The position numbers were made by a program, and so were the translations under genes. From Eublepharis macularius (taxonomy: Eukaryota > Chordata > Lepidosauria > Squamata > Eublepharidae), in contig NC_072807.1 in NCBI RefSeq assembly GCF_028583425.1, positions 33,671,001 to 33,735,000 of the forward strand: DNA of 64,000 bases. The letters run 5' to 3'. Numbering within the stretch: position 1 is the stretch's first letter; each line of letters opens with the position of its first letter. Below, in pieces: positions 13,008-62,633 of this stretch. The notes beneath the pieces are model-generated. The model searched no databases. It was not told the origin of the DNA and saw nothing but the letters and a program-made list of their open reading frames with translations.

Positions 13008-13277
13008 GTCAGTTACCTGGACTATAGCCAAGACAGCCTCAGAGTTGACGGTCTTGCATCCATTGCACAGACATCTCCCTAGCATGAAACAGCATGGGAA
13101 ATAATGCTTTTGGGGTGCAAGTGTGAGTAAGTGAGAGACATGGTGGCTTATAGGACAGTTATCTCAATAACTAGTAGTTTGGATTGGGGTTGCAGAACTG
13201 TCCGAGAATAGATCTCGAAACAGGTGGTCTTAAATAAAGTATTCTGTCCATGTGCAATTGGCCACTATAAACACTGA

Positions 13278-13488
13278 TCCAGAGGAATTAGCCGTGTTAG
13301 TCAGTATTCGCAAAATAGTAAAGCGCCCAGTAGCACCTTTAAGACTAACCAACTTTATTGTAGCATAAGCTTTCGAGAGCCACAGTTCTCTTTGTCAGAT
13401 GCATCTGATGAAGAGAGCAGTGGTTCTCGAAAGCTTATGCTACCATAAAGTTGGTTAGTCTTAAAGGTGCTACTAGACTCTTTACTGT
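13278..13488. mobile_element. fold-back Penelope-like short element
   Basis: A 37-bp single-copy overhang (13278-13314) leads into two inverted arms of about 87 bp meeting at CAGATGCATCTG (centre 13401/13402). A perfect 12-bp target-site duplication TATAAACACTGA flanks it (13266-13277, 13489-13500). The right arm carries CTGATGA, a stem and CGAAA, the order of a hammerhead ribozyme core. Hammerheads of this kind are known from Penelope-like retroelements. Family assignment is inference. Confidence 0.75.
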
Positions 13489-13709
13489 TATAAACACTGA
13501 GTATACGGGAAGGGCTCTATTATCTTCCCACAGGGGCTAGGTTAGACCGGACAGCAACTCATCCAGAGCTGCCCCGTAACCTTCGGTGGTGGGGGGTGGG
13601 TGGGAATTTGGGCCCAGTTCTCCTGGCCTCCACCCCATTCCCCGTCTCCCCCATGCTCAGTTCTGCCCAAGGGTAACTGCAGCCCCTTTTTGCTTCCTCT
13701 TGCCCGCAG

Positions 13710-15376: not shown

Positions 15377-16854
15377 ACGAGGAGGTTTGGAAGGCTGCGA
15401 CTGCTTACGATTCCACCGATGATTTGGTACTCTGGAAATAGCAAACCAAATATTGCAGAGCGGTCAATTGCTCATGCAATGTGTCATTCACGGGAAGTCT
15501 TTAAAGTTCTTAATATTGTTTGGTATGACCTCAACAGGAATATGAAAACATTCAGGCAATTTTAAACCTTTTAGGAAATATGAGAAATAGCTCCACTGAG
15601 TAATTTGCTGTTCTAGTGAAGAAACCAAACACCAAGCTGGGATTTTGGAGGTTGTTGGAAAATTTAGGAGTAATTTACTCTGAAGTCCGTTACTCAGAAG
15701 CCCTGTTACCTGTTTTTGAACCCAGAGCTGAGGCCTGGAAAAAGCGCCTCTGAACATGTTCAGAACATATTTGTGAGTCGCTGGCATTCATACACTTGGG
15801 GTTAGGAAGCACTTCCATATCAGAAGACATAGCTTTTAAAAAGAATTTTTAGCCTTTTGTTTATTTTAAGTAAACTATTGGGAAAGAAAAGATAAATCTT
15901 CATACGCTTGTAAATCAGGCAGAAAGCCAGATGTTAACAGACCGAACTTTTTTCTACTACCTGAACCTGGCGGCTTGCAATCTCTGCCTACAGCATTGCT
16001 TAAAATTCTCTTTTCCACCCTAATTGCTAATTTTCTGTTCTCGGAATATCTGCCCGGCCTGGTCTAAAATTAACACTGTGGAACTGTGATGAAAGTGGGA
16101 AAATCGGGCTGCAATCCTTGGAGTGAGCCCCATTTAATAAAACGAGACTTACTTCTGAGAGGAGCTGCTTTGGCATGCTGTTTATCCAGCAATAAACCAC
16201 AAAGCATGGTCAAGATTGCCAGAACATCCGCTCCATGCACACAGTTTGTAGCGTAAGTTTCCAGGCCTCTGAGATGTGACTGAGTCTATGCTAGAAACAA
16301 CACGAGTAGGATATACAGTGATAAATACAGACATACTAGGTGGTTTTCAAGAGCTGAGACACGATTTCCTGCACGCAAGGCGCTTCCAGGACATCCTAAA
16401 CATTGACCTCAAGGGCAGAACGGCAGAATAGAAAATGACAGATGGAGGGGGGGGAAACCATTAACAAAAGTGGTTGCATCCTTAATTGAACCCCGAAGGG
16501 GTTTTATTGGATGGGTGTGAGCTTCCATAAGCAATATTTCTACTGCAGAAGCCTGAATCATCCAGCGAGCTGCCCAGTCCTTCCCAGAAAATTGCTGTTT
16601 TTCGAAAGGTGCAAGCGGAGTCTTTTTTTAAAAAGAACCTTAACAATCAATCTGGCTTCTGGTATCATTAATATATCAAAGTAACATTGCATGTTTTTGG
16701 CAGTAATGCCGTAAGCCCAAGACTCTGGGGCACGTTTTAAGTATGTCATCAAAATGGGGTCCCTGCAAGATTGTTTAATCCGTAGTTCAAAATTATGTAA
16801 CTGCATTTTTAAAAAACTGGAATAGAAACCTTTTGTGAGGAGGATGGTTTTAGA
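15377..16854. other. intergenic, no gene seen
   Basis: About 1.5 kb without a recognised gene. The segment near 16096-16175 (CTGCAATCCTTGGAGTGAGC) may be another worn palindromic MITE arm. Short open frames in the rest have no recognisable homology. Confidence 0.45.
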
Positions 16855-17135
16855 TGGGTAGCCGTATTGGTCTGCAGTAGAACAGCAGGATTTGAGTCCA
16901 GTGGCAACTTAAAGAGACCAACAAGATTTTCATGATACTTTTAGGTGGGTTTTGGCCTGCAGTTGGAACAGCGTAATTTCAGTCTGGGGTGCCTCAGAGA
17001 CCAATAAGCTTTTCAGGGCGTAAGCTTTCGAGAGTCAGAGCTCCCTTCTCCAGACACCAGACATCTGAAGAAGGGAGCTCTTGAAAATCTTGTGGGTCTC
17101 TAAGGGGCTGCTGGACTCGAATCCGCTTTTGTGAC
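16855..17135. mobile_element. Penelope-like short repeats, fold-back pair
   Basis: The left part (GTAGCCGTATTGGTCTGCAG, then AGTCCAGTGGCAAC) is inverted relative to the right part (CATCTGAAGAAGGGAGCTCT, then TCTCTAAGGGGCTGCTGGAC). The motif CTGAAGA...GAAA occurs on the right arm. Two insertions may be superimposed. Confidence 0.55.
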
Positions 17136-22296: not shown

Positions 22297-22498
22297 GAGC
22301 CAAGCTACAAGTGACGCCTTACACAGGTTGGACGCTTGTCAGCTTCCCTCAAGATTTGATGGGAAATGTAGGCCTCCTGGTTTTACAGCTTGGCTCTCCA
22401 TTACAGCTGCAAGACCAGGACGCCTACATTTCCCATCAAAACTTGAGGGAAGCTGATAAGTGTCCAACCTGTGTCAGGCGTCACTTGTAGCTTGGCTC
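22297..22498. mobile_element. palindromic PIF/Harbinger-like MITE, long form
   Basis: The ends GAGCCAAGCTACAAGTGACG/CGTCACTTGTAGCTTGGCTC are perfect inverted repeats. The inner arms carry GATGGGAAATGTAGG. Flanks are CTA/CCA, one mismatch from a 3-bp duplication. The closest sister is 28655-28888. Confidence 0.8.
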
Positions 22499-23130
22499 CC
22501 AGTAAGCAGAACATTTGAGATCTGGGCAACTGTGTGGGGGCGAGAAGGGGGTGAACTCTTCTCTCCACTCATTTCTTTAAGCCTTGTTAAAGACAAGTGC
22601 CCACAATATCCTTTTCTCCTCCTTTGATAGCTTAAAATCAAAAGAGGTGGATTGTTTTCAACCAGGGTAAAAAAACCCTCATTACCTATTGCCACAGCCC
22701 CAATATACATTGAGGCCCCTCTGGAGCAAAACACTACAGGTTATTCCAATCACACCATTTCTCCATCATGCTCGTTCAACCTTGATACTACTTGAGCAAT
22801 GCTGGAAAAGTCTTTTTTTTTTTGCCCACTGTTCCTGTAAACAAGTGTTCTTACTCCCCCTTGCTAGGTAATGCCCCATTTGGCTTCTAATGCATCATTT
22901 AAAATTAATCTCCAGGTTTCTTAATAAAGCAACTACCATCTTTGTCCCCCACTGGCTGCCTTTTCAGAGGAGGTTGAAGTCGGTTCCCGGTTCCTTATTC
23001 ATAAATCCAACCACAGATTTTGAGGATATTTATAAAGCATTGCATCCCCAAATAATTTTTGGACCACCTTTGCCCTCCAAGTGGACTGTGCTTTAATGAT
23101 AAGCTATATCACCAGATTAAGCGGAGTGCC
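22499..23130. other. intergenic, no gene seen
   Basis: The stretch at 22890-23096 has a 68-codon open frame (TTDFEDIYKALHPQ) that could be retroelement-derived, but I could not place it in a family. Confidence 0.4.
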
Positions 23131-24119
23131 ATAGGATCTCTGGTAATTCACCAACACAGAAGGGGGGTATTTAGCTTCCAACAGATACAACAACAAAACT
23201 AGAAAAGCACGCCCAAGACGGAAAGAATTTCAACCATGAACAATAATGAAAATGTGAATACAATATTTCATCAAGGTTATACGTTGCTGTACAAAAGTTG
23301 AACGTTTCAATACAACATCCATAGGACACACAAAATTAAGGCAGTATACATATATGTCAAATGAATGTCAATTGCTGAGAAAATAATTTGTCCAAATACA
23401 ATCAATAAGCTTCCCAAGTACGCGTGGTAAGATTGAGTACGCTGTGCGCCAAGGGGCAGACACCTATGAAGCTGCTACAAGGCAAGGCTTGAGCTGCTGC
23501 GAGAGAAGGCAACGAGCGTCAGCCGGCAAAAAAATTCTTTTTTCTCGTTTCAGACGGAGGGTCCTTCTTCAGGCCACCATATATCACAAAATCAAATCAA
23601 CAATTCATTTTCCAACAAGTCATATCCGTGTGTGTCGAGGTGAGGACCTCACCTCGACACACACGGATATGACTTGTTGGAAAATGAATTGTTGATTTGA
23701 TTTTGTGATATATGGTGGCCTGAAGAAGGACCCTCCGTCTGAAACGAGAAAAAAGAATTTTTTTGCCGGCTGACGCTCGTTGCCTTCTCTCGCAGCAGCT
23801 CAAGCCTTGCCTTGTAGCAGCTTCATAGGTGTCTGCCCCTTGGCGCACAGCGTACTCAATCTTACCACGCGTACTTGGGAAGCTTATTGATTGTATTTGG
23901 ACAAATTATTTTCTCAGCAATTGACATTCATTTGACATATATGTATACTGCCTTAATTTTGTGTGTCCTATGGATGTTGTATTGAAACGTTCAACTTTTG
24001 TACAGCAACGTATAACCTTGATGAAATATTGTATTCACATTTTCATTATTGTTCATGGTTGAAATTCTTTCCGTCTTGGGCGTGCTTTTCTAGTTTTGTT
24101 GTTGTATAGGATCTCTGGT
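23131..24119. mobile_element. giant fold-back element, 461-bp arms, in a 14-bp duplication
   Basis: The arms 23185-23645 and 23647-24107 are reverse complements with no mismatch that I could see and a one-base spacer (23646). The sequence ATAGGATCTCTGGT occurs at 23131-23144 and 24106-24119 as a target-site duplication. A 40-bp single-copy overhang (23145-23184) sits on the left only, the same layout as the small fold-backs at 13278 and 26758. Each arm contains CCTGAAGAAGGACC...GTCTGAAACG, a hammerhead-like core. It directly precedes Penelope coding remnants. An 83-codon open frame is mirrored on both strands but has no recognised homology. Confidence 0.8.
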
Positions 24120-24329
24120 GGCACCAGAAAGCGCCAATTTGTATATGGGAGAATCGGAACATTATTTTCATATGTTCAACAGATAATAAACCCATTCTTT
24201 AGTAATATATTTATATGGTGGTAATATATAGGTTTTTTAAATTACAGAATGGTGATCAGAGTATGTTGGTAGAACTTCATAACTGGATGGGTGAATAGGA
24301 TGAGATGTTGAATTTGAATTTCGTGCAGA

Positions 24330-26605: not shown

Positions 26606-26757
26606 CTACGGAAAAGGAGGAAATCTTTTTTTGACTATGTGGCTGAAAGATAAGCTTTTTCTTAATATGCTGAATATAAAATGGTGAGTATAATGTATTT
26701 TAACATAAATAAGTGAGGGGATGAAGAGGAAAAATATTATGTAGGTTTAATAATCTG

Positions 26758-26978
26758 GTCATAGATCCAGAGGATTTAGCCATGTTAGTCTGTAGTTGCA
26801 AAATAGTAAAAAGTCCAGTAGCACCTTTAAGACTAACAAACTTTATTGAGGCATAAAGTTTCGAGAACCACAGCTCTCTTCATCATGCCATGCATCTGAC
26901 GAAAAGAGCTGTGGTTCTCGAAAGCTTACGCCTCAATAAAGATCGTTCGTCTTAAAGGTGCTACTGGATTTTTTACTA
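26758..26978. mobile_element. fold-back Penelope-like short element
   Basis: A single-copy overhang of about 44 bp is followed by two inverted arms of about 88 bp with a short asymmetric centre near 26890. A perfect 12-bp target-site duplication TTTAATAATCTG flanks it (26746-26757, 26979-26990). The right arm carries CTGACGA...CGAAAGC. Confidence 0.75.
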
Positions 26979-26990
26979 TTTAATAATCTG

Positions 26991-27329
26991 CTCTACATCC
27001 TGCTTTTGATATTATGTCTATCCTTTAATGTTACTTTTTGTTGTATTATTTTGTAGTTTTAATACTTTGTTTTCAATAGTATGTTTACAGTCTAATATTA
27101 CTTTGTTATATAGTCTGCTTTTGATATTTTTTCTACAGTCCAATGAGATTTTCTGTTTTAATAAAATAATTTTTAAAAACTTCTTGGAAGACAGTGGTTC
27201 TTAAAGAATAGCATGACAGGTGAATCAGGGGATCTGCAGCACAAGAAAAAATTGGCAAAAAATTACCTCCCCCCACATTTGCTAGTGCAAATCTACTGCT
27301 GCATCCCAGCCAGTTTGTTAAAAGGCAAC
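26991..27329. other. intergenic, AT-rich, nothing recognised
   Basis: Repeated TTGATATT/AATATTACTTTG motifs suggest a worn retroelement tail, but no family could be supported. Confidence 0.35.
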
Positions 27330-28574: not shown

Positions 28575-28650
28575 CAAAGTCATCCAGAGCTTTGCCTGAG
28601 GCCCTGGACAGCAGCCGCCAGTCAGTGTAGGTGATACTGACCTTGATAGA
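28575..28650 (+). mobile_element. tRNA SINE 3' fragment
   Basis: CGCCAGTCAGTGTAGGTGAT and CTGACCTTGATAGACTGAG match the tail of the 60598 family. Confidence 0.55.
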
Positions 28651-28654
28651 CTGA

Positions 28655-28888
28655 GGGCCAAACTACAAGTGACGCCTGATACAGGTTGGACACTTGTCAG
28701 CTTCCCTCAAGTTTTGGCGGGAAATGTAGGCAGCTTGGCGGAATGTTGGACAAGAGACAGTTGAGAAGTCCATTGGACAGCAGTCAGGGAGCAAAGCTGC
28801 GAGACCAGGACACCTATATTTCCCATCAAAACTTGAGGCAACCTGACAAGTGTCCAACCTGTGTCAGGCGTCACTTGTAGCTTGGCCC
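28655..28888. mobile_element. palindromic PIF/Harbinger-like MITE, long form
   Basis: GGGCCAAACTACAAGTGACG to CGTCACTTGTAGCTTGGCCC. The inner arms match 22297-22498. A central segment of about 60 bp is unique to this copy. Flanking TGA/TTG do not match. Confidence 0.78.
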
Positions 28889-29039
28889 TTGCGTCTGACT
28901 CATTCACACAGGTGGAATAATGCCCTTTAGCAATGCCCTTTAGCAATCATTTGCGACTGGATTTTCCTGTGGAGTGCGCTGAGACTGCATTGTGCGAGGT
29001 GTGTGAATTCAGCCTTCAGCTTCAGGGGGCAGAAGAGGA

Positions 29040-33216: not shown

Positions 33217-33316
33217 GGGCCAAACTAGAAGTGACGAAGTACACTTGAATGGCAAATGAACAGACTGTCACATGTATTCCTCCCTGTTCACTTGCGCTCC
33301 ACTTCTAGCTTGGCCC
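33217..33316. mobile_element. palindromic PIF/Harbinger-like MITE, 100 bp
   Basis: GGGCCAAACTAGAAGTGACG to CTTCTAGCTTGGCCC with a perfect TTA duplication (33214-33216, 33317-33319). Confidence 0.82.
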
Positions 33317-45197: not shown

Positions 45198-45609
45198 CAG
45201 GGGTCATTTCCTAGAAAAAGAGCTGGAGGAACTCATTAGCATAACTCATTAGCATGTGCCATGCCTCTTGACGTCACTGGAAGTGTGTCATTAGCATAAC
45301 TGATTTGCATATGCCACACCCCCTGACATCACCTATTCTGGCTGTTTTGGACCCAATCCTGGCCATTCAGGGCTGAAATTGGGCCCAGAATGGCAAAAAG
45401 GGGCTGAAAAGGGCTGAAAAGGGGCCCCAAATGGTCAGGATCGGGCCACTGCTGAGCAGGAGAGTGATCCACCACCCATCAGAGGCTCGATCCGGGCCAT
45501 TTGGGCCCCAATCCAGGCCCAAAATGGCTGAGAGTCAGGTGGGTGGGGCTACCTGTCATGAGACTGCCGGAACGACGTTCCTGTGCATTCTCCCTCAAAA
45601 TGAGCCCTG
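45198..45609. mobile_element. hAT-like MITE (CAGGGGTCATTT...AATGAGCCCTG)
   Basis: The ends CAGGGGTCATTT and AATGAGCCCTG are inverted. The flanks ATAATAAT/ATAACAAC (6 of 8 match) fit an 8-bp duplication in a SINE tail. Its right part is included in the tandem triplication. Confidence 0.65.
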
Positions 45610-46579
45610 ATAACAACAACAACAACAACATTCAATTTATATACTACCCTTCAGGATAACTCAGAGCGGTTTACAAAGTATGTTACTATTATCCTCACAA
45701 CAAAACACCCTGTGAGATGAGTGGGGCTGAGAGAGCTCCAGAGACATCACCTATTCTGGCTGTTTTGGACCCAATCCTGGCCATTCAGGGCTGAAATTGG
45801 GCCCAGAATGGCAAAAAGGGGCTGAAAAGGGCTGAAAAGGGGCCCCAAATGGTCAGGATCGGGCCACTGCTGAGCAGGAGAGTGATCCACCACCCATCAG
45901 AGGCTCGATCCGGGCCATTTGGGCCCCAATCCAGGCCCAAAATGGCTGAGAGTCAGGTGGGTGGGGCTACCTGTCATGAGACTGCCGGAACGACGTTCCT
46001 GTGCATTCTCCCTCAAAATGAGCCCTGATAACAACAACAACAACAACATTCAATTTATATACTACCCTTCAGGATAACTCAGAGCGGTTTACAAAGTATG
46101 TTACTATTATCCTCACAACAAAACACCCTGTGAGATGAGTGGGGCTGAGAGAGCTCCAGAGACATCACCTATTCTGGCTGTTTTGGACCCAATCCTGGCC
46201 ATTCAGGGCTGAAATTGGGCCCAGAATGGCAAAAAGGGGCTGAAAAGGGCTGAAAAGGGGCCCCAAATGGTCAGGATCGGGCCACTGCTGAGCAGGAGAG
46301 TGATCCACCACCCATCAGAGGCTCGATCCGGGCCATTTGGGCCCCAATCCAGGCCCAAAATGGCTGAGAGTCAGGTGGGTGGGGCTACCTGTCATGAGAC
46401 TGCCGGAACGACGTTCCTGTGCATTCTCCCTCAAAATGAGCCCTGATAACAACAACAACAACAACATTCAATTTATATACTACCCTTCAGGATAACTCAG
46501 AGCGGTTTACAAAGTATGTTACTATTATCCTCACAACAAAACACCCTGTGAGATGAGTGGGGCTGAGAGAGCTCCAGAG
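45326..46579. repeat. 418-bp unit in three tandem copies
   Basis: ACATCACCTATTCTGGCTG starts at 45326, 45744 and 46162, so the period is exactly 418 bp. No difference between copies was found when the lines were compared, including the AAC simple repeat. The unit spans the right part of the hAT-like MITE and the tail half of an adjacent reversed SINE. Confidence 0.9.
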
Positions 46580-46727
46580 AGCCGTGACTAGCCCAAGGTC
46601 ACCCAGCTGGCTTCAAGCGGAGGAGTGGGGAATCAAACCCGGCTCTCCAGATTAGAGTCCCGCGCTCTTAACCACTACACCAAACTGGAAAGACAGCACT
46701 TTCCATCTCTCTGGATTCAGAAAGCTG
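46446..46727 (-). mobile_element. tRNA SINE with the same 38-nt 5' extension as 11303
   Basis: The minus strand reads GTTTGGTGTAGTGGTTAAGA ending at about 46688, with the GTT tail at 46446. The 38-nt extension (46690-46727) equals that at 11303-11340 on the plus strand. Confidence 0.85.
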
Positions 46728-49023: not shown

Positions 49024-49519
49024 GCAGCGATCCCCTTGCACTTAAGTTCTGGCACATGGGTACCACATTCCGTAGGGGGTTGGCCTTCATCACATCAACA
49101 ACGCATAAGAATGGAAAAGATGCATTTGGCGCCTTTCGGTGTGTGCCTGGCTGTGCTTCTGACAGCCAGCTCGGAGGATTTTGAAGTCTCAGGGTAGACA
49201 ATCAGTAGCATACTGAGTCATCTCCATCTGTATTAATGAGGATTCCCTCCATCTATAATAAGCAGCGAGTGACTCACACAAACCCCAGAGAACAAGGTAC
49301 CGTCTCTGCTTGCACATTATAACAGTGAGATCATGGCCTCCAGAGGCCCGAAACTACAGAACTGACTTCAGAGTAAGAAGGTGTGGTGTGAGATGTTTTG
49401 GAGTCTTCCGTTACCATAGCACTTTGTTCTCCTTGCCCAAGCGATGGAAAACAAAGCTGGGGTTTCTCTTGGAGTTGTTTACAAATGGACAGTTTGAGTG
49501 GGCATTTACAGGGGTGTAA
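49024..49519. other. intron, nothing recognised
   Basis: No feature supported. Confidence 0.45.
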
Positions 49520-49650
49520 GAGATCCAGAGGAGTTAGCCGTGTTAGTCTGCAGTAGCGAAATAGAAAAGAGTCCGGTAGCACCTTTACGACTAATCAACT
49601 TTGCTGTAGCATAAGCTTTTGAGAGACACAGGTCTCTTTGTCAGATGCAC
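49520..49650 (-). mobile_element. Penelope-like short repeat, single arm with full left end
   Basis: GATCCAGAGGAGTTAGCCGT, GTAGCACCTTTACGACTAAT, CATAAGCTTTTGAGAGACAC and TTTGTCAGATGCAC, the same left overhang and arm as the fold-backs at 13278 and 26758 but without the return arm. Confidence 0.72.
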
Positions 49651-49819
49651 GTGTAAGAGAAAGTGAAGAGGCTGCTGGGCCAATGCTATCCCTCCTTGGC
49701 AGGTGGGTTTTCAAAGGAAGGAATGGGGGAAAACCTGCAATTTCCTGATAACCCCATTCATGTAATGGATGAAGTGGCTTCCTTCCAGCCCGCAATTACT
49801 TATGCGACCGTATATTTCA

Positions 49820-51068: not shown

Positions 51069-51335
51069 CAGGGCTTTTTTTCTGGGAAAAGAGGTGGTGG
51101 AACTCAGTGGGTTGCCCTCAGAGAAAATGGTCACATGGCTGGTGGCCCCGCTCCCTGATCTCCAGACAGAGGGGAGTTTAGATTGCCCTCTGCGCCGCTG
51201 AGCACTGAGCGGCGCAGAGGTCAATCTCAACTCCCCTCTGTCTGGAGATCAGGGGGCGGGGCCACCAGCCATGTGATCATTTTCAAGAGGTTCCGGAACT
51301 CCGTTCCCCTGTGTTCCCCCTGAAAAAAAGCCCTG
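51069..51335. mobile_element. palindromic hAT MITE (CAGGGCTTTTTTTC family), complete
   Basis: CAGGGCTTTTTTTCTGGG to CTGAAAAAAAGCCCTG, 267 bp, flanked by a perfect 8-bp duplication CCCTGCAT (51061-51068, 51336-51343). The centre is GCGGCGCAG...CTGCGCCGC-like, so the whole element folds into one hairpin. Best copy of its family here. Confidence 0.92.
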
Positions 51336-52005: not shown

Positions 52006-52254
52006 AAATAAGGGTACTTTCCGCTTGGATCCTCCTCACCACTCACTGGAGAAGGATCCAGGCTCCTGTAAACTTGACCTAGGGATCAGTTGTGAGGCAG
52101 TGGGAGAGGGAACACCAGAGCAGTGGAGCATTCCCTTTGCCCCCTTGGTGGTCTTCTGTGTCTGTGTACTTTGTCCTCCTTTCCTCCCATTGGTTTGTAT
52201 CTTCTGTGTGCGCAAAAGTGCTGGAGAATCTCTGGTTTGGAGAGATTTGGTGCT

Positions 52255-52350
52255 ACACCTCTGAAGATGCCAGCCACAGCTGCTGGCGAAACGTCAGGAA
52301 CTACAATGCCAAGACCACGGCAATACAGCCCGGAAAACCCCCAACAACCA
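52255..52350 (+). mobile_element. Penelope-like short repeat, second family
   Basis: CTGAAGATGCCAGCCACAGC, TGCTGGCGAAACGTCAGGAA, ACAGCCCGGAAAACC. CTGAAGA, a perfect 6-bp stem (GCCAGC/GCTGGC) and GAAA give a hammerhead-like core. A fragment (ACAGCCCAGAAAATCTACAA) recurs at about 52925-52955. Confidence 0.68.
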
Positions 52351-52354
52351 ATCT

Positions 52355-52495
52355 CTGGTTTATTCTGACCGGCTCCAAGGACATAGGGAGAAGTCTTTCA
52401 CATAACCAGGGAGATAACTCTGGAGTGAGTCTGGGACCTTTGGCATGCAAAGCAGGTGTTCTGCTGCTAAGCCACAAGCTGCTCCTCCCTCGCAT
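52355..52495 (-). mobile_element. tRNA SINE (GAGCATCTG family), decayed
   Basis: TCTGGGACCTTTGGCATGCA, AAGCAGGTGTTCTGCTGCTA and AAGCCACA: reversed head. Confidence 0.6.
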
Positions 52496-53649
52496 CTGTT
52501 TGAGGTTGTGTTGTGTCTTCATGGTGTTTCGCTCTTTTCTGCTCAAACTCTACTATTAAAAACCTTTCTGGTCTTTAAATGCATAGCTAGCACAGTTGGC
52601 CACAAATACTGTTTAAATGACTGGGTTTCCTTTCCATAATCACAGCTCAACCCATTCCCATTTTGGATTTCCTGTTTGCAGCAAGGAGCCCTGGCACTTT
52701 AAATTAATAGTGACAGGTGTGCTTCCCCCCCTCATTTTCAAAATTGGCACCTCTTTGGAAGAAAGTACTGGAAGACTTTGATCTGGTGCATGGAATGTTT
52801 CCAAGCCCTTCCTCCACCCCACCTTCTTGGTGCCTGGTACCTTTCATTCTGCTCTGGTGCTGGTTTACAAGATTCAGCCTGGTCTATGGATGGCTTGGCA
52901 ATTTTTGGGTGAAGTCTTGTTCTTCTACAGCCCAGAAAATCTACAACAACCAACTTTTACACTAGACTTAAACGTTTGTTTTTGAGCCAAACCAAATATT
53001 CAGCACGACTGCGTCTGCCTGTTTTCTTTCCAGAATGTAGAACGGAAGCTGTCTGGGAAAAATAAATGAAATGGGTACTCCTTTTCCCCCTCCTCTTGGA
53101 GGCTAGACCACACCATCATGAGGGCCTCATAAACAAAAGCAAATATTTTAAAAAATCCTCTTTTTGTCTTTTTATTTTAAAAAGTAAGGTGGTTTGAGGA
53201 TGAGATGGTGTTGAATGTAGAAGAAGGGTTTAAGACTTCTGCCTGACACCAGGTCTGTGCCATCTGGAGAATCTTGTTTCCTTAAAATTCCCTGCCCAGA
53301 TTGTTTTTCCATCCACACACCTTGCCACACAAAGAACAAGGTTGTTTTGTGTATGTGGTGCTTGTGAGGCCACACTAGGGGAACTATGAACTGTACAAGG
53401 ATGGTAAAGTATTCAGGGCTTTTTGGAAAGCAATCTTAACTGGAGGCTTTCTCCATTGTAATGTGTAGTGTGCTTGCCGCCGGGAACTGGTTTAAAGGGC
53501 TAGCAAATTGGATAATCTCTTCAACTGCAAAGTGTCGGTATACTTTCTTGGGGCCACCCAGTCTGTGGGTTTCCACGGAATTCCTCCTGTGTGGCTAGAA
53601 AAAAAGCTTCCGCGCTTTGGGAAATGGTTGAGCAATAAAATACGTTTGC
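52496..53649. other. SEMA7A intron 1, nothing recognised
   Basis: Apart from the repeat fragment near 52930, no feature supported. Confidence 0.45.
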
Positions 53650-58124: not shown

Positions 58125-58620
58125 GAAACTGTCTTAAACTGAGTCAGGCAACCATTGGTCCATCTTGGCCAGTATTGTCTCCTCCAACGAGTGGTGTCTC
58201 TGTGTAGTCTCAGGGCCAAGCTACAAGTGACGAATGACACTTGAATGGCAAGTGGATTGAGTGGAGCGCAAGTGGAGGGCAAGTGAACAGGGGGAAATAC
58301 GCTTGCCGTTCAAGTGTCATTCATCACTTGTAGCTTGGCCCTACAAGAAGTGACGAATTACACTTGAAGGGCAAGTGAACAGACTCACATGTATTCCTCC
58401 CTGTTCACTTGTGCTCCACTCGATCAAATGGAGTGCAAGTGGTGATCAAGTGGAGCACAAGTGAACAGGGAGGAATACATGTGAGTCTGTTCACTTGCCA
58501 TGCAAGTGTAATTCGGCGCTTCTAGCTTGGCTCTCAGGCAGAGATGCTTGGAACCGAGATCTTGATTACTCTTTTGGAATCAAAATCAGTGCTTTATTAC
58601 TGAGCTACAGCACGGCATCT
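58125..58620 (-). mobile_element. tRNA SINE (GAGCATCTG family) split by a compound MITE
   Basis: The left part ACTGAGTCAGGCAACCATTG, TGGCCAGTATTGTCTCCTCC and right part GCTTGGAACCGAGATCTTGA, TTACTGAGCTACAGCACGGC form one reversed copy around 58213-58533. Confidence 0.7.
58213..58533. mobile_element. compound PIF/Harbinger-like MITE
   Basis: Two family members sit back to back. The first (58213-58341, GGGCCAAGCTACAAGTGACG to CTTGTAGCTTGGCCC) runs directly into a second lacking its first terminal bases (to 58533, CTAGCTTGGCTC). The pair as a whole is flanked by TCA (58210-58212, 58534-58536), so it may have moved as one unit. Confidence 0.78.
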
Positions 58621-59432: not shown

Positions 59433-59477
59433 CAGAATTTTGCTGCAGTGGGCTGACATGACTCCTCCCTCTGGAAT

Positions 59478-59683
59478 AGCAAGATTCGAGACCAGTAGCA
59501 CCTTAAAGACCAACTAGATTTTCACGGTATGAGTGTCCCATATTTAATGAGTTGAGGGCTAGCTTAACTACTCCTCTACTTAAAAATATGGAACTACCTA
59601 ATATGAGAGCCCAGGTGACATGGGATACAAATGATTCAGATATAGATATAGATATAGATATAGATATAGATATAGATATAGAT

Positions 59684-59781
<98 letters not shown>

Positions 59782-59975
59782 GGATGGATGGATGGATGGA
59801 TGGATGGATGGATGGATGGATGGATGGATGGATGGATGGATGGATGGATGGATGGATAGGTTATGAGCTTTCAAGAGTCAAAGCTCCCTTGTTGAAAGCT
59901 CCTACCCTGGAAATCTAGTTGGTCTTTAAGGTGCTACTAGACCCAAATCTTGCTCTTCTGCTATAGACTAATATG
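59478..59975. mobile_element. Penelope-like fold-back repeat with microsatellite in its hairpin
   Basis: The left arm CCAGTAGCACCTTAAAGACC, AACTAGATTTTCACGGTATG and the right arm GGAAATCTAGTTGGTCTTTA, AGGTGCTACTAGACCC are inverted. The region between holds about 50 bp of other DNA and the 220-bp microsatellite. Confidence 0.7.
59637..59858. repeat. compound microsatellite (TATAGA)n(TAGA)n(TGGA)n
   Basis: About 8 hexamer, 23 TAGA and 19 TGGA units run head to tail with sharp borders. Long, nearly pure and probably highly polymorphic. Confidence 0.97.
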
Positions 59976-62432: not shown

Positions 62433-62633
62433 GAGCCAAGCTACAAGTGATGAATGACACTTGCCTGACAAGTGAACAGACTCACGTGTATTCCTCCCTG
62501 TTCACTTGCCATTCACTTGTGCTCCACTACGTGATCAAGTGGCGTGCAAGTGGAGAGCAAGTGAACAGGGAGGAATACACGTGAGTCTGTTCACTTGCCA
62601 GGCAAGTGTCATTCGTCACTTGTAGCTTGGTCC
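62433..62633. mobile_element. palindromic PIF/Harbinger-like MITE, long hairpin
   Basis: GAGCCAAGCTACAAGTGATG to CGTCACTTGTAGCTTGGTCC with arms of about 95 bp (AACAGGGAGGAATACACGTG and its complement). Flanks TAA/ATA do not match. Confidence 0.8.

Follow-up and report, generated by a model that had tools for sequence, protein, structure and literature searches.

Inverted pLTRs and short 3' extensions are named as peculiarities of the Penelope-type retrotransposons (PLEs) in the available text of PMC8969392. In Adineta vaga, the Penelope elements described in the accessible part of PMC3846280 have inverted pLTRs, one of which carries a 31-bp tail, and are flanked by target-site duplications (TSDs) of 8-10 bp, with some copies having no TSD. 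Palindromes occur at the inverted junctions of these elements, the head-to-head arrangement is the commonest, and self-priming was suggested as their source. The purified protein of a PLE from Anolis (PAc) cleaves and extends both target strands in vitro. Reverse transcription begins at two neighbouring positions within the RNA, apparently in the same way on both strands, and what lies between them is an optional 'tail' of 30-40 bp, carried by a fraction of genomic copies (PMC11167929, in the sections available). The later steps of PLE insertion are left for validation in the same sections, and how PLEs complete their insertion is an unsettled question.

Inverted PLE copies with a tail and a TSD are already known. 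Here we describe a palindrome with 461-bp arms (the large palindrome) in a 64-kb stretch of DNA, referred to below as the window, which is the whole stretch that was analyzed. We interpret it, with a probability of about 0.7, as a recent and probably non-autonomous Penelope-type retrotransposon insertion, and its membership of the PLEs is provisional.

The large palindrome and its borders

The initial annotation had reported exact 461-bp arms with a single-base spacer, and the two arms are indeed reverse complements at 461 of 461 positions (100%), with one A between them (Table 1). The arm is single-copy in the window, where its best other match is 14 nt long, and among the inverted pairs listed for the 64 kb the next in length has 189 nt, 95% identity and 35 kb between its members. 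The 14-bp TSD that had been proposed outside the arms was recovered as well, since ATAGGATCTCTGGT is present at both borders in copies identical at 14 of 14 positions, and already its first eight bases are confined to these two sites in the 64-kb window. Among 3000 random site pairs drawn from this repeat-rich window (975 bp separation, slack of +/-20 nt), a direct match of at least 10 nt was found in 14 and of at least 12 nt in four, the longest being 19 nt; matches of at least 12 nt being this rare, chance is an unlikely source of a 14-bp repeat that adjoins both borders. The right copy of ATAGGATCTCTGGT shares two bases with the end of the right arm, and therefore the inserted DNA comprises 23145-24105 (961 bp). 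Because of the same overlap, the length of the left single-copy overhang is either 40 or 42 nt, depending on whether these two bases are counted. On the minus strand this overhang would be the 3' part of the inferred RNA, of 42 nt when the shared AT is included. It agrees with the 40-bp left overhang noted earlier, which had been likened to the layout of two small fold-backs; we matched these by layout to the small palindromes at 13266-13500 and 26746-26993.

Table 1. Coordinates in the window: the large palindrome and the small hammerhead family
Feature	Coordinates	Strand	Remarks
Left TSD, ATAGGATCTCTGGT	23131-23144		exact 14-bp match to 24106-24119
Single-copy overhang ('tail')	23145-23184	-	40 nt; no counterpart on the right; PLE tails of 30-40 bp fit (PMC11167929, available text)
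Left arm	23185-23645	-	putative cDNA copy, inferred sense minus; 100% complementary to 23647-24107
Left-arm hammerhead-like core	23548-23572	-	CTGAAGA A GGAC(CCTCC)GTCT GAAA
Central base A	23646		one nt between the arms, where the two copies join
Right arm	23647-24107	+	inferred sense plus; final two bases AT common to the TSD
Right-arm hammerhead-like core	23720-23744	+	followed by CGAG in place of cleavable CGTC
Right TSD, ATAGGATCTCTGGT	24106-24119		exact 14-bp match to 23131-23144
Small palindrome	13266-13500		12-bp TSD, 36-nt overhang
Small palindrome	26746-26993		15-bp flanking repeat with one mismatch, 40-nt overhang
Tailed single-arm copy	49524-49650 (49514-49660 at widest)		10-bp TSD
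Old small-family copy	near 20.66k		no TSD of at least 8 bp found
Old small-family member	about 16850-17125		partial tandem, then inverted copy; arrangement resembles printed PLE ones
Weaker small-family fragments	near 19.8k, 33.9k, 59.5k, 59.9k		

With no differences in 461 bp, the large palindrome is at most 3.2 million years old (95% limit) if 1e-9 changes per site per year are assumed, 6.5 million years at 5e-10 and 1.4 million years at 2.4e-9, limits that are valid as long as the arms do not correct each other. The earlier suggestion of a very young insertion is consistent with arms of 461 base pairs and a 14-bp duplication that show no differences.

Joining of the flanks reconstructs the empty site as GTGCC-ATAGGATCTCTGGT-GGCAC. 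The inverted 5-mers GTGCC (23126-23130) and GGCAC (24120-24124) exactly bracket the duplicated target of the large palindrome, and bracketing of this type is absent at the four other insertion sites compared.

Hammerhead-like cores and elements of similar layout

A minimal hammerhead ribozyme in the pLTR is a trait of PLEs. Each arm contains a hammerhead-like core in the PLE style, built of CTGANGA, an extra base, a 4-bp stem and GAAAC. The cores point outward, the 5' side of each facing the centre, and the same outward polarity is observed in the small palindromes. In the large palindrome the core lies 73 nt away from the centre, and 365 nt separate its GAAA from the end of the arm. The core continues with GAAACGAG and has no U-H cleavage site, GAAAC being followed by GAG, whereas in the Anolis element PAc it is followed by GAAACGUC. 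The presence of GAG at this position makes ribozyme activity of the large-arm core doubtful; the core previously proposed for each arm is there, together with a 4-bp stem II. The core stretch folds no better than its own shuffles (z -0.17). We take it as a probable relic or variant of a PLE core rather than a working ribozyme.

The loose string CTGANGA...GAAA, with 21 occurrences in the window against a mean of 12.2 and a maximum of 18 in 50 shuffles, was rejected as evidence of hammerheads, being weak alone. Narrower forms of the motif were set after the sequences had been viewed: the string with a spacer of 8-25 nt occurs 11 times (mean 3.7, maximum 11 in 50 shuffles), with a U-H cleavage site four times (0.74, maximum 5 in 50 shuffles), and continuing as GAAACG three times (0.04, maximum 1 in 50 shuffles). 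The matches with a U-H site cannot include the large palindrome, by its sequence, and two of the three matches with GAAACG are its two arms. A search combining CTGANGA and GAAA with a stem II of 4 bp or more and no more than one extra base, which misses the small-family cores at 26.8k and 49.5k, gave six matches in the window against a mean of 0.33 and a maximum of two in 60 shuffles. As this form was chosen with the PAc and small-family cores already in view, its figure flatters. These six are the two large arms, 13405, 17065 and 20661 (small family), and 52261 (the Poseidon-like copy described below). When the arm itself was shuffled, a core with stem II appeared on either strand in 19 of 20000 shuffles.

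The small hammerhead family has the core CTGATGA A GAGA...TCTC GAAAGCTT, of the same build as in the large arm, and a cleavable motif is present in some of its copies. The arms of the small palindromes are 85-88 nt long and about 11% diverged, their core is no more than about 8 nt from the centre, and GAAA is 61 nt from the end in the copy at 13.3k. In all five arms that could be placed (two at 13.3k, two at 26.8k, where the junction is ambiguous, and one at 49.5k), the inner end lies at most about 8 nt upstream of CTGANGA or its remnant, indicating that the single-arm copy and the two palindromes have one common inner end. Such an end would be expected if the palindromes are two joined cDNAs, each extended as far as the 5' end of the RNA. 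Copying of a palindromic master as a whole was also considered and found no support: of the four columns that divide the four palindrome arms two against two, three pair the arms of one palindrome, one pairs them crosswise and none pairs left with left, the columns being few and the identities within palindromes (0.886 and 0.894) barely separating from those between them (up to 0.881). By its layout and core, and with no sequence match to PAc, this family is provisionally labeled PLE-like. Inverted small-family pieces were also observed around an ATAG microsatellite at 59474-59958.

Besides the small family, the window contains a solo Poseidon-like copy at 52239-52349, of which the part 52257-52349 aligns with the PAc RNA at 76% identity (E 3e-12), the one significant match to this RNA in the window among the matches listed. 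The copy is flanked by a 12-bp TSD, AATCTCTGGTTT (52227-52238 and 52350-52361), its end CCAACAACC aligns with the first start region of PAc, ACAACAACCC, and its hammerhead core is followed by GAAACGTC, with 62 nt from GAAA to the end. The combination of this match with the TSD and the matching end shows that a Poseidon-type PLE was once active in this genome. Together with repeats of kinds known from squamates, the 76% match to an Anolis element suggests a squamate reptile as the host. An end piece similar to that of the Poseidon-like copy is seen again at 52926-52953. The 9-mer ATCTCTGGT is common to the TSDs of the large palindrome (23136-23144, 24111-24119) and of the Poseidon-like copy (52228-52236, 52351-52359) and is found nowhere else in the window; when five segments were drawn at random, a shared 9-mer arose in 82 of 20000 draws, and a target preference is possible.

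Other repeats in the window include a second, unrelated fold-back family at 22297-22498, 28650-28889, 33217-33304, 58212-58342, 58346-58535 and 62436-62630, with termini like GAGCCAAGCTACAAGTGACG. This family appears MITE-like, and no flanking direct repeat was found around 22297-22498 among those listed. A further fold-back at 51123-51284 has 80-nt arms of 94% identity and a 2-nt spacer. Finally, a 418-bp tandem unit is present in three perfect copies (100%) at 45325-46580, which may be either a young duplication or an assembly effect.

Coding content and similarity searches

The large palindrome looks non-coding. Its longest open frame, of 102 codons (23387-23695), is antisense to the inferred RNA and runs across the centre, with a mirror copy on the minus strand (23597-23905); neither Pfam nor the PDB sequences gave a match to it. 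Pfam searches at E 1 with eight of the 19 palindrome frames of at least 40 aa, including the 102-codon frame, gave no match; the remaining frames are mostly mirror copies or reach into the flanks. One sense frame of 41 codons is open across the tail and continues into the flank, contains no ATG and has no Pfam match. The PLE-type ORF for a telomerase-like RT and a (canonical) GIY-YIG endonuclease was not found in the large palindrome (longest frame 102 codons, Pfam on eight frames); the element is at best a non-autonomous relative. In the window as a whole, 35 stop-to-stop ORFs reach 120 aa or more, and Pfam at E 0.01 gave nothing for eight of them and for two shorter frames.

Comparison of the arms with the PAc RNA, a sequence of 361 nt that served as the sole PLE reference, gave nothing significant, the best match listed being 10 nt with E 0.26 and the wrong polarity; the same comparison does pick out 52257-52349 at 76%. 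A candidate resemblance over 10 nt between ATACAACAAC at the arm border and the PAc start region, E 0.26 among the best matches listed, was dropped on account of its opposite polarity. Similarly, the arms have no significant match to the small hammerhead family (best E 1.1 among the matches listed), and the resemblance of the tail to the small-family tails is not significant, 136, 1310, 1590 and 1740 of 2000 shuffles being as good. Exact-pattern scans of viral and genomic contigs and similarity searches of phages and plasmids gave no match, which says little as the collections scanned are viral or prokaryotic.

We searched the whole window with Rfam at gathering scores and obtained nothing. 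At E up to 10, two palindromic stretches match mainly models of miRNA precursors, since perfect hairpins attract such models. No hammerhead was reported at this threshold for the palindromic stretches, for the core alone or for the PAc-like control, and the silence of Rfam in this control makes it uninformative for the other two.

Possible origin and relation to known systems

The TSD, the one-sided 40-nt extension and the head-to-head arms, taken together, correspond to a layout reported for inserted PLEs. By analogy with PAc, a GIY-YIG endonuclease provided in trans would make a staggered double break with cuts 14 bp apart, and each freed 3' end would prime the reverse transcription of its own copy of the same RNA, about 500 nt long. 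One cDNA would begin at the distal start and include the 40-nt tail, and the other would begin about 40 nt further in, so that two RNA start sites about 40 nt apart would account for the one-sided tail. Both cDNAs would then reach the same 5' end of the RNA, or halt at the same place, and would be linked head to head across a single base, fill-in yielding the 14-bp duplication. Behind this scheme are the observed palindrome, duplication, one-sided tail, core polarity and elements of like layout in the window; the extension of both strands and the two start sites are taken from those printed for PAc (PMC11167929, available sections). We infer the use of a PLE enzyme by the large palindrome and the joining step. 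Speaking against PLE membership are the lack of similarity to the one PLE RNA compared, the missing cleavage site and RT/endonuclease ORF, and the position of the core, which is farther from the centre than in the small family.

The main rival to two-strand priming is a snap-back, in which one target-primed cDNA of a PLE or of a LINE/SINE-type element folds back and self-primes the second arm. A single template would account for the 100% identity of the arms, and self-priming has already been proposed for PLE palindromes (available text of PMC3846280). Nevertheless, we consider the snap-back unlikely here, as the one-base spacer is too short for a hairpin loop unless it was trimmed or re-templated, and the second arm is 40-42 nt short at its outer end, where it abuts the TSD, a feature that plain copying of the tailed arm does not predict. 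Moreover, the tailed single-arm copy of the small family ends where the palindromes of this family join.

Long inverted arms could also belong to a fold-back DNA transposon or a long-TIR MITE with a 14-bp target duplication, and an unrelated fold-back family with common termini does exist in the window (22297-22498, 58346-58535, 62436-62630 and others). What makes this origin quite improbable is the duplications, which are of variable length (14 bp here, 12, 15 and 10 bp in the relatives by layout and 12 bp in the Poseidon-like control); variable lengths of 10-15 bp are long for transposases. In place of the symmetrical TIR termini and fixed short TSD of DNA transposons, the large palindrome has outer arm ends unequal by 40-42 nt and a TSD of 14 bp. 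The hammerhead-like core also argues against a DNA transposon, and no transposase was matched in the frames tested with Pfam. An artefact of assembly or library preparation is, in our judgment, more improbable still. A turned-back read would give perfect 461-bp arms with a 1-nt spacer, and the window holds a second perfect repeat (418 bp x 3.0), but the flanks of the two sides differ, both borders carry the exact 14-bp duplication and the right arm ends exactly at the tail boundary, which are not products of a turned-back read, an assembly fold-back being unlikely to be the cause as it would not create a TSD. In addition, the window contains older, diverged elements of like layout. The view taken in the initial annotation, that this is a real insertion and not a fold-back artefact, is supported by the exact duplication, the one-sided overhang and two further elements with this layout; that annotation named no mechanism, and the PLE reading is ours.

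Under the preferred reading of a Penelope-type insertion primed from both target strands, a broader scenario may be put forward tentatively, and we hold it to be possible though doubtful. Perfect head-to-head palindromes might be a regular end product of Penelope-type insertion, formed as an RNA-protein dimer copies one RNA twice from both cut strands at once. Non-coding hammerhead RNAs might have spread largely in this manner in this genome, and the large palindrome might be a fresh product of an undescribed family.

On the PLE reading, a perfect palindrome of this size that stands alone and is dissimilar to the sole PLE reference compared would be a new member among the inverted PLE copies with a tail and a TSD. 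No stand-alone hammerhead palindromes of such kind were found in a literature search by titles and abstract openings, with subscription papers mostly outside its scope. A fresh insertion in which the arms are identical, the duplication is intact and both presumed starts can be seen would document cleanly, in vivo, how two cDNAs meet end to end, and the common inner end of the small-family palindromes and the tailed single-arm copy makes the model of two joined cDNAs directly testable. A perfect hairpin of 461 bp could, moreover, give rise to double-stranded RNA and form an unstable structure in DNA.

Among the systems compared, the metazoan non-LTR retrozymes with type I hammerheads are likewise hammerhead-bearing and non-autonomous, lack LTRs and have TSDs of more than 4 bp when these are present (PMC7229834). 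They are linked to small circular RNAs (PMC7229834), whereas the large palindrome has neither tandem copies nor a cleavage site. The small family in the window shares with the large palindrome the TSD, a tail of 36-40 nt, the head-to-head arms and the polarity of the core; unlike the large palindrome, it has short diverged arms and mostly U-H after GAAA, and the two have no significant sequence similarity.

Similar to the large palindrome, the Penelope elements of Adineta vaga have head-to-head inverted copies, a tail on one of them, TSDs and junction palindromes (PMC3846280, accessible part). As described in that part, an ORF or a captured gene mostly lies between their inverted pLTRs, and the inverted copy of Pen2a is shorter by 37 bp, whereas the large palindrome consists of two equal arms alone. 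With the elements of the Penelope/Poseidon clade of Anolis carolinensis (PAc, Poseidon_Ac) it has in common the optional one-sided tail of 30-40 bp and the presumed use of both target strands, as well as an extra base before stem II of the hammerhead-like core, the latter by our own reading of the printed RNA (PMC11167929, available sections). It differs from them in having a mirror-image pair only, with no pLTR-ORF-pLTR arrangement, RT/EN ORF or cleavage site and with no similarity in the arms. The tail of PAc lies inside the ORF, and across that of the large palindrome only the 41-codon sense frame with no ATG is open. The start sites of PAc lie in an AC-rich stem-loop of the RNA, a rule that rests on one PLE, whereas the inferred sense ends of the large palindrome are GT-rich (TTGTTGTTGT, TGTGTTGGTG), that is, the complement. 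As to the traits of the PLEs as a group, a TSD of variable length is seen in the large palindrome and in the elements of like layout, and the one-sided tail of 30-40 bp and the head-to-head inverted copies are both present in the large palindrome.
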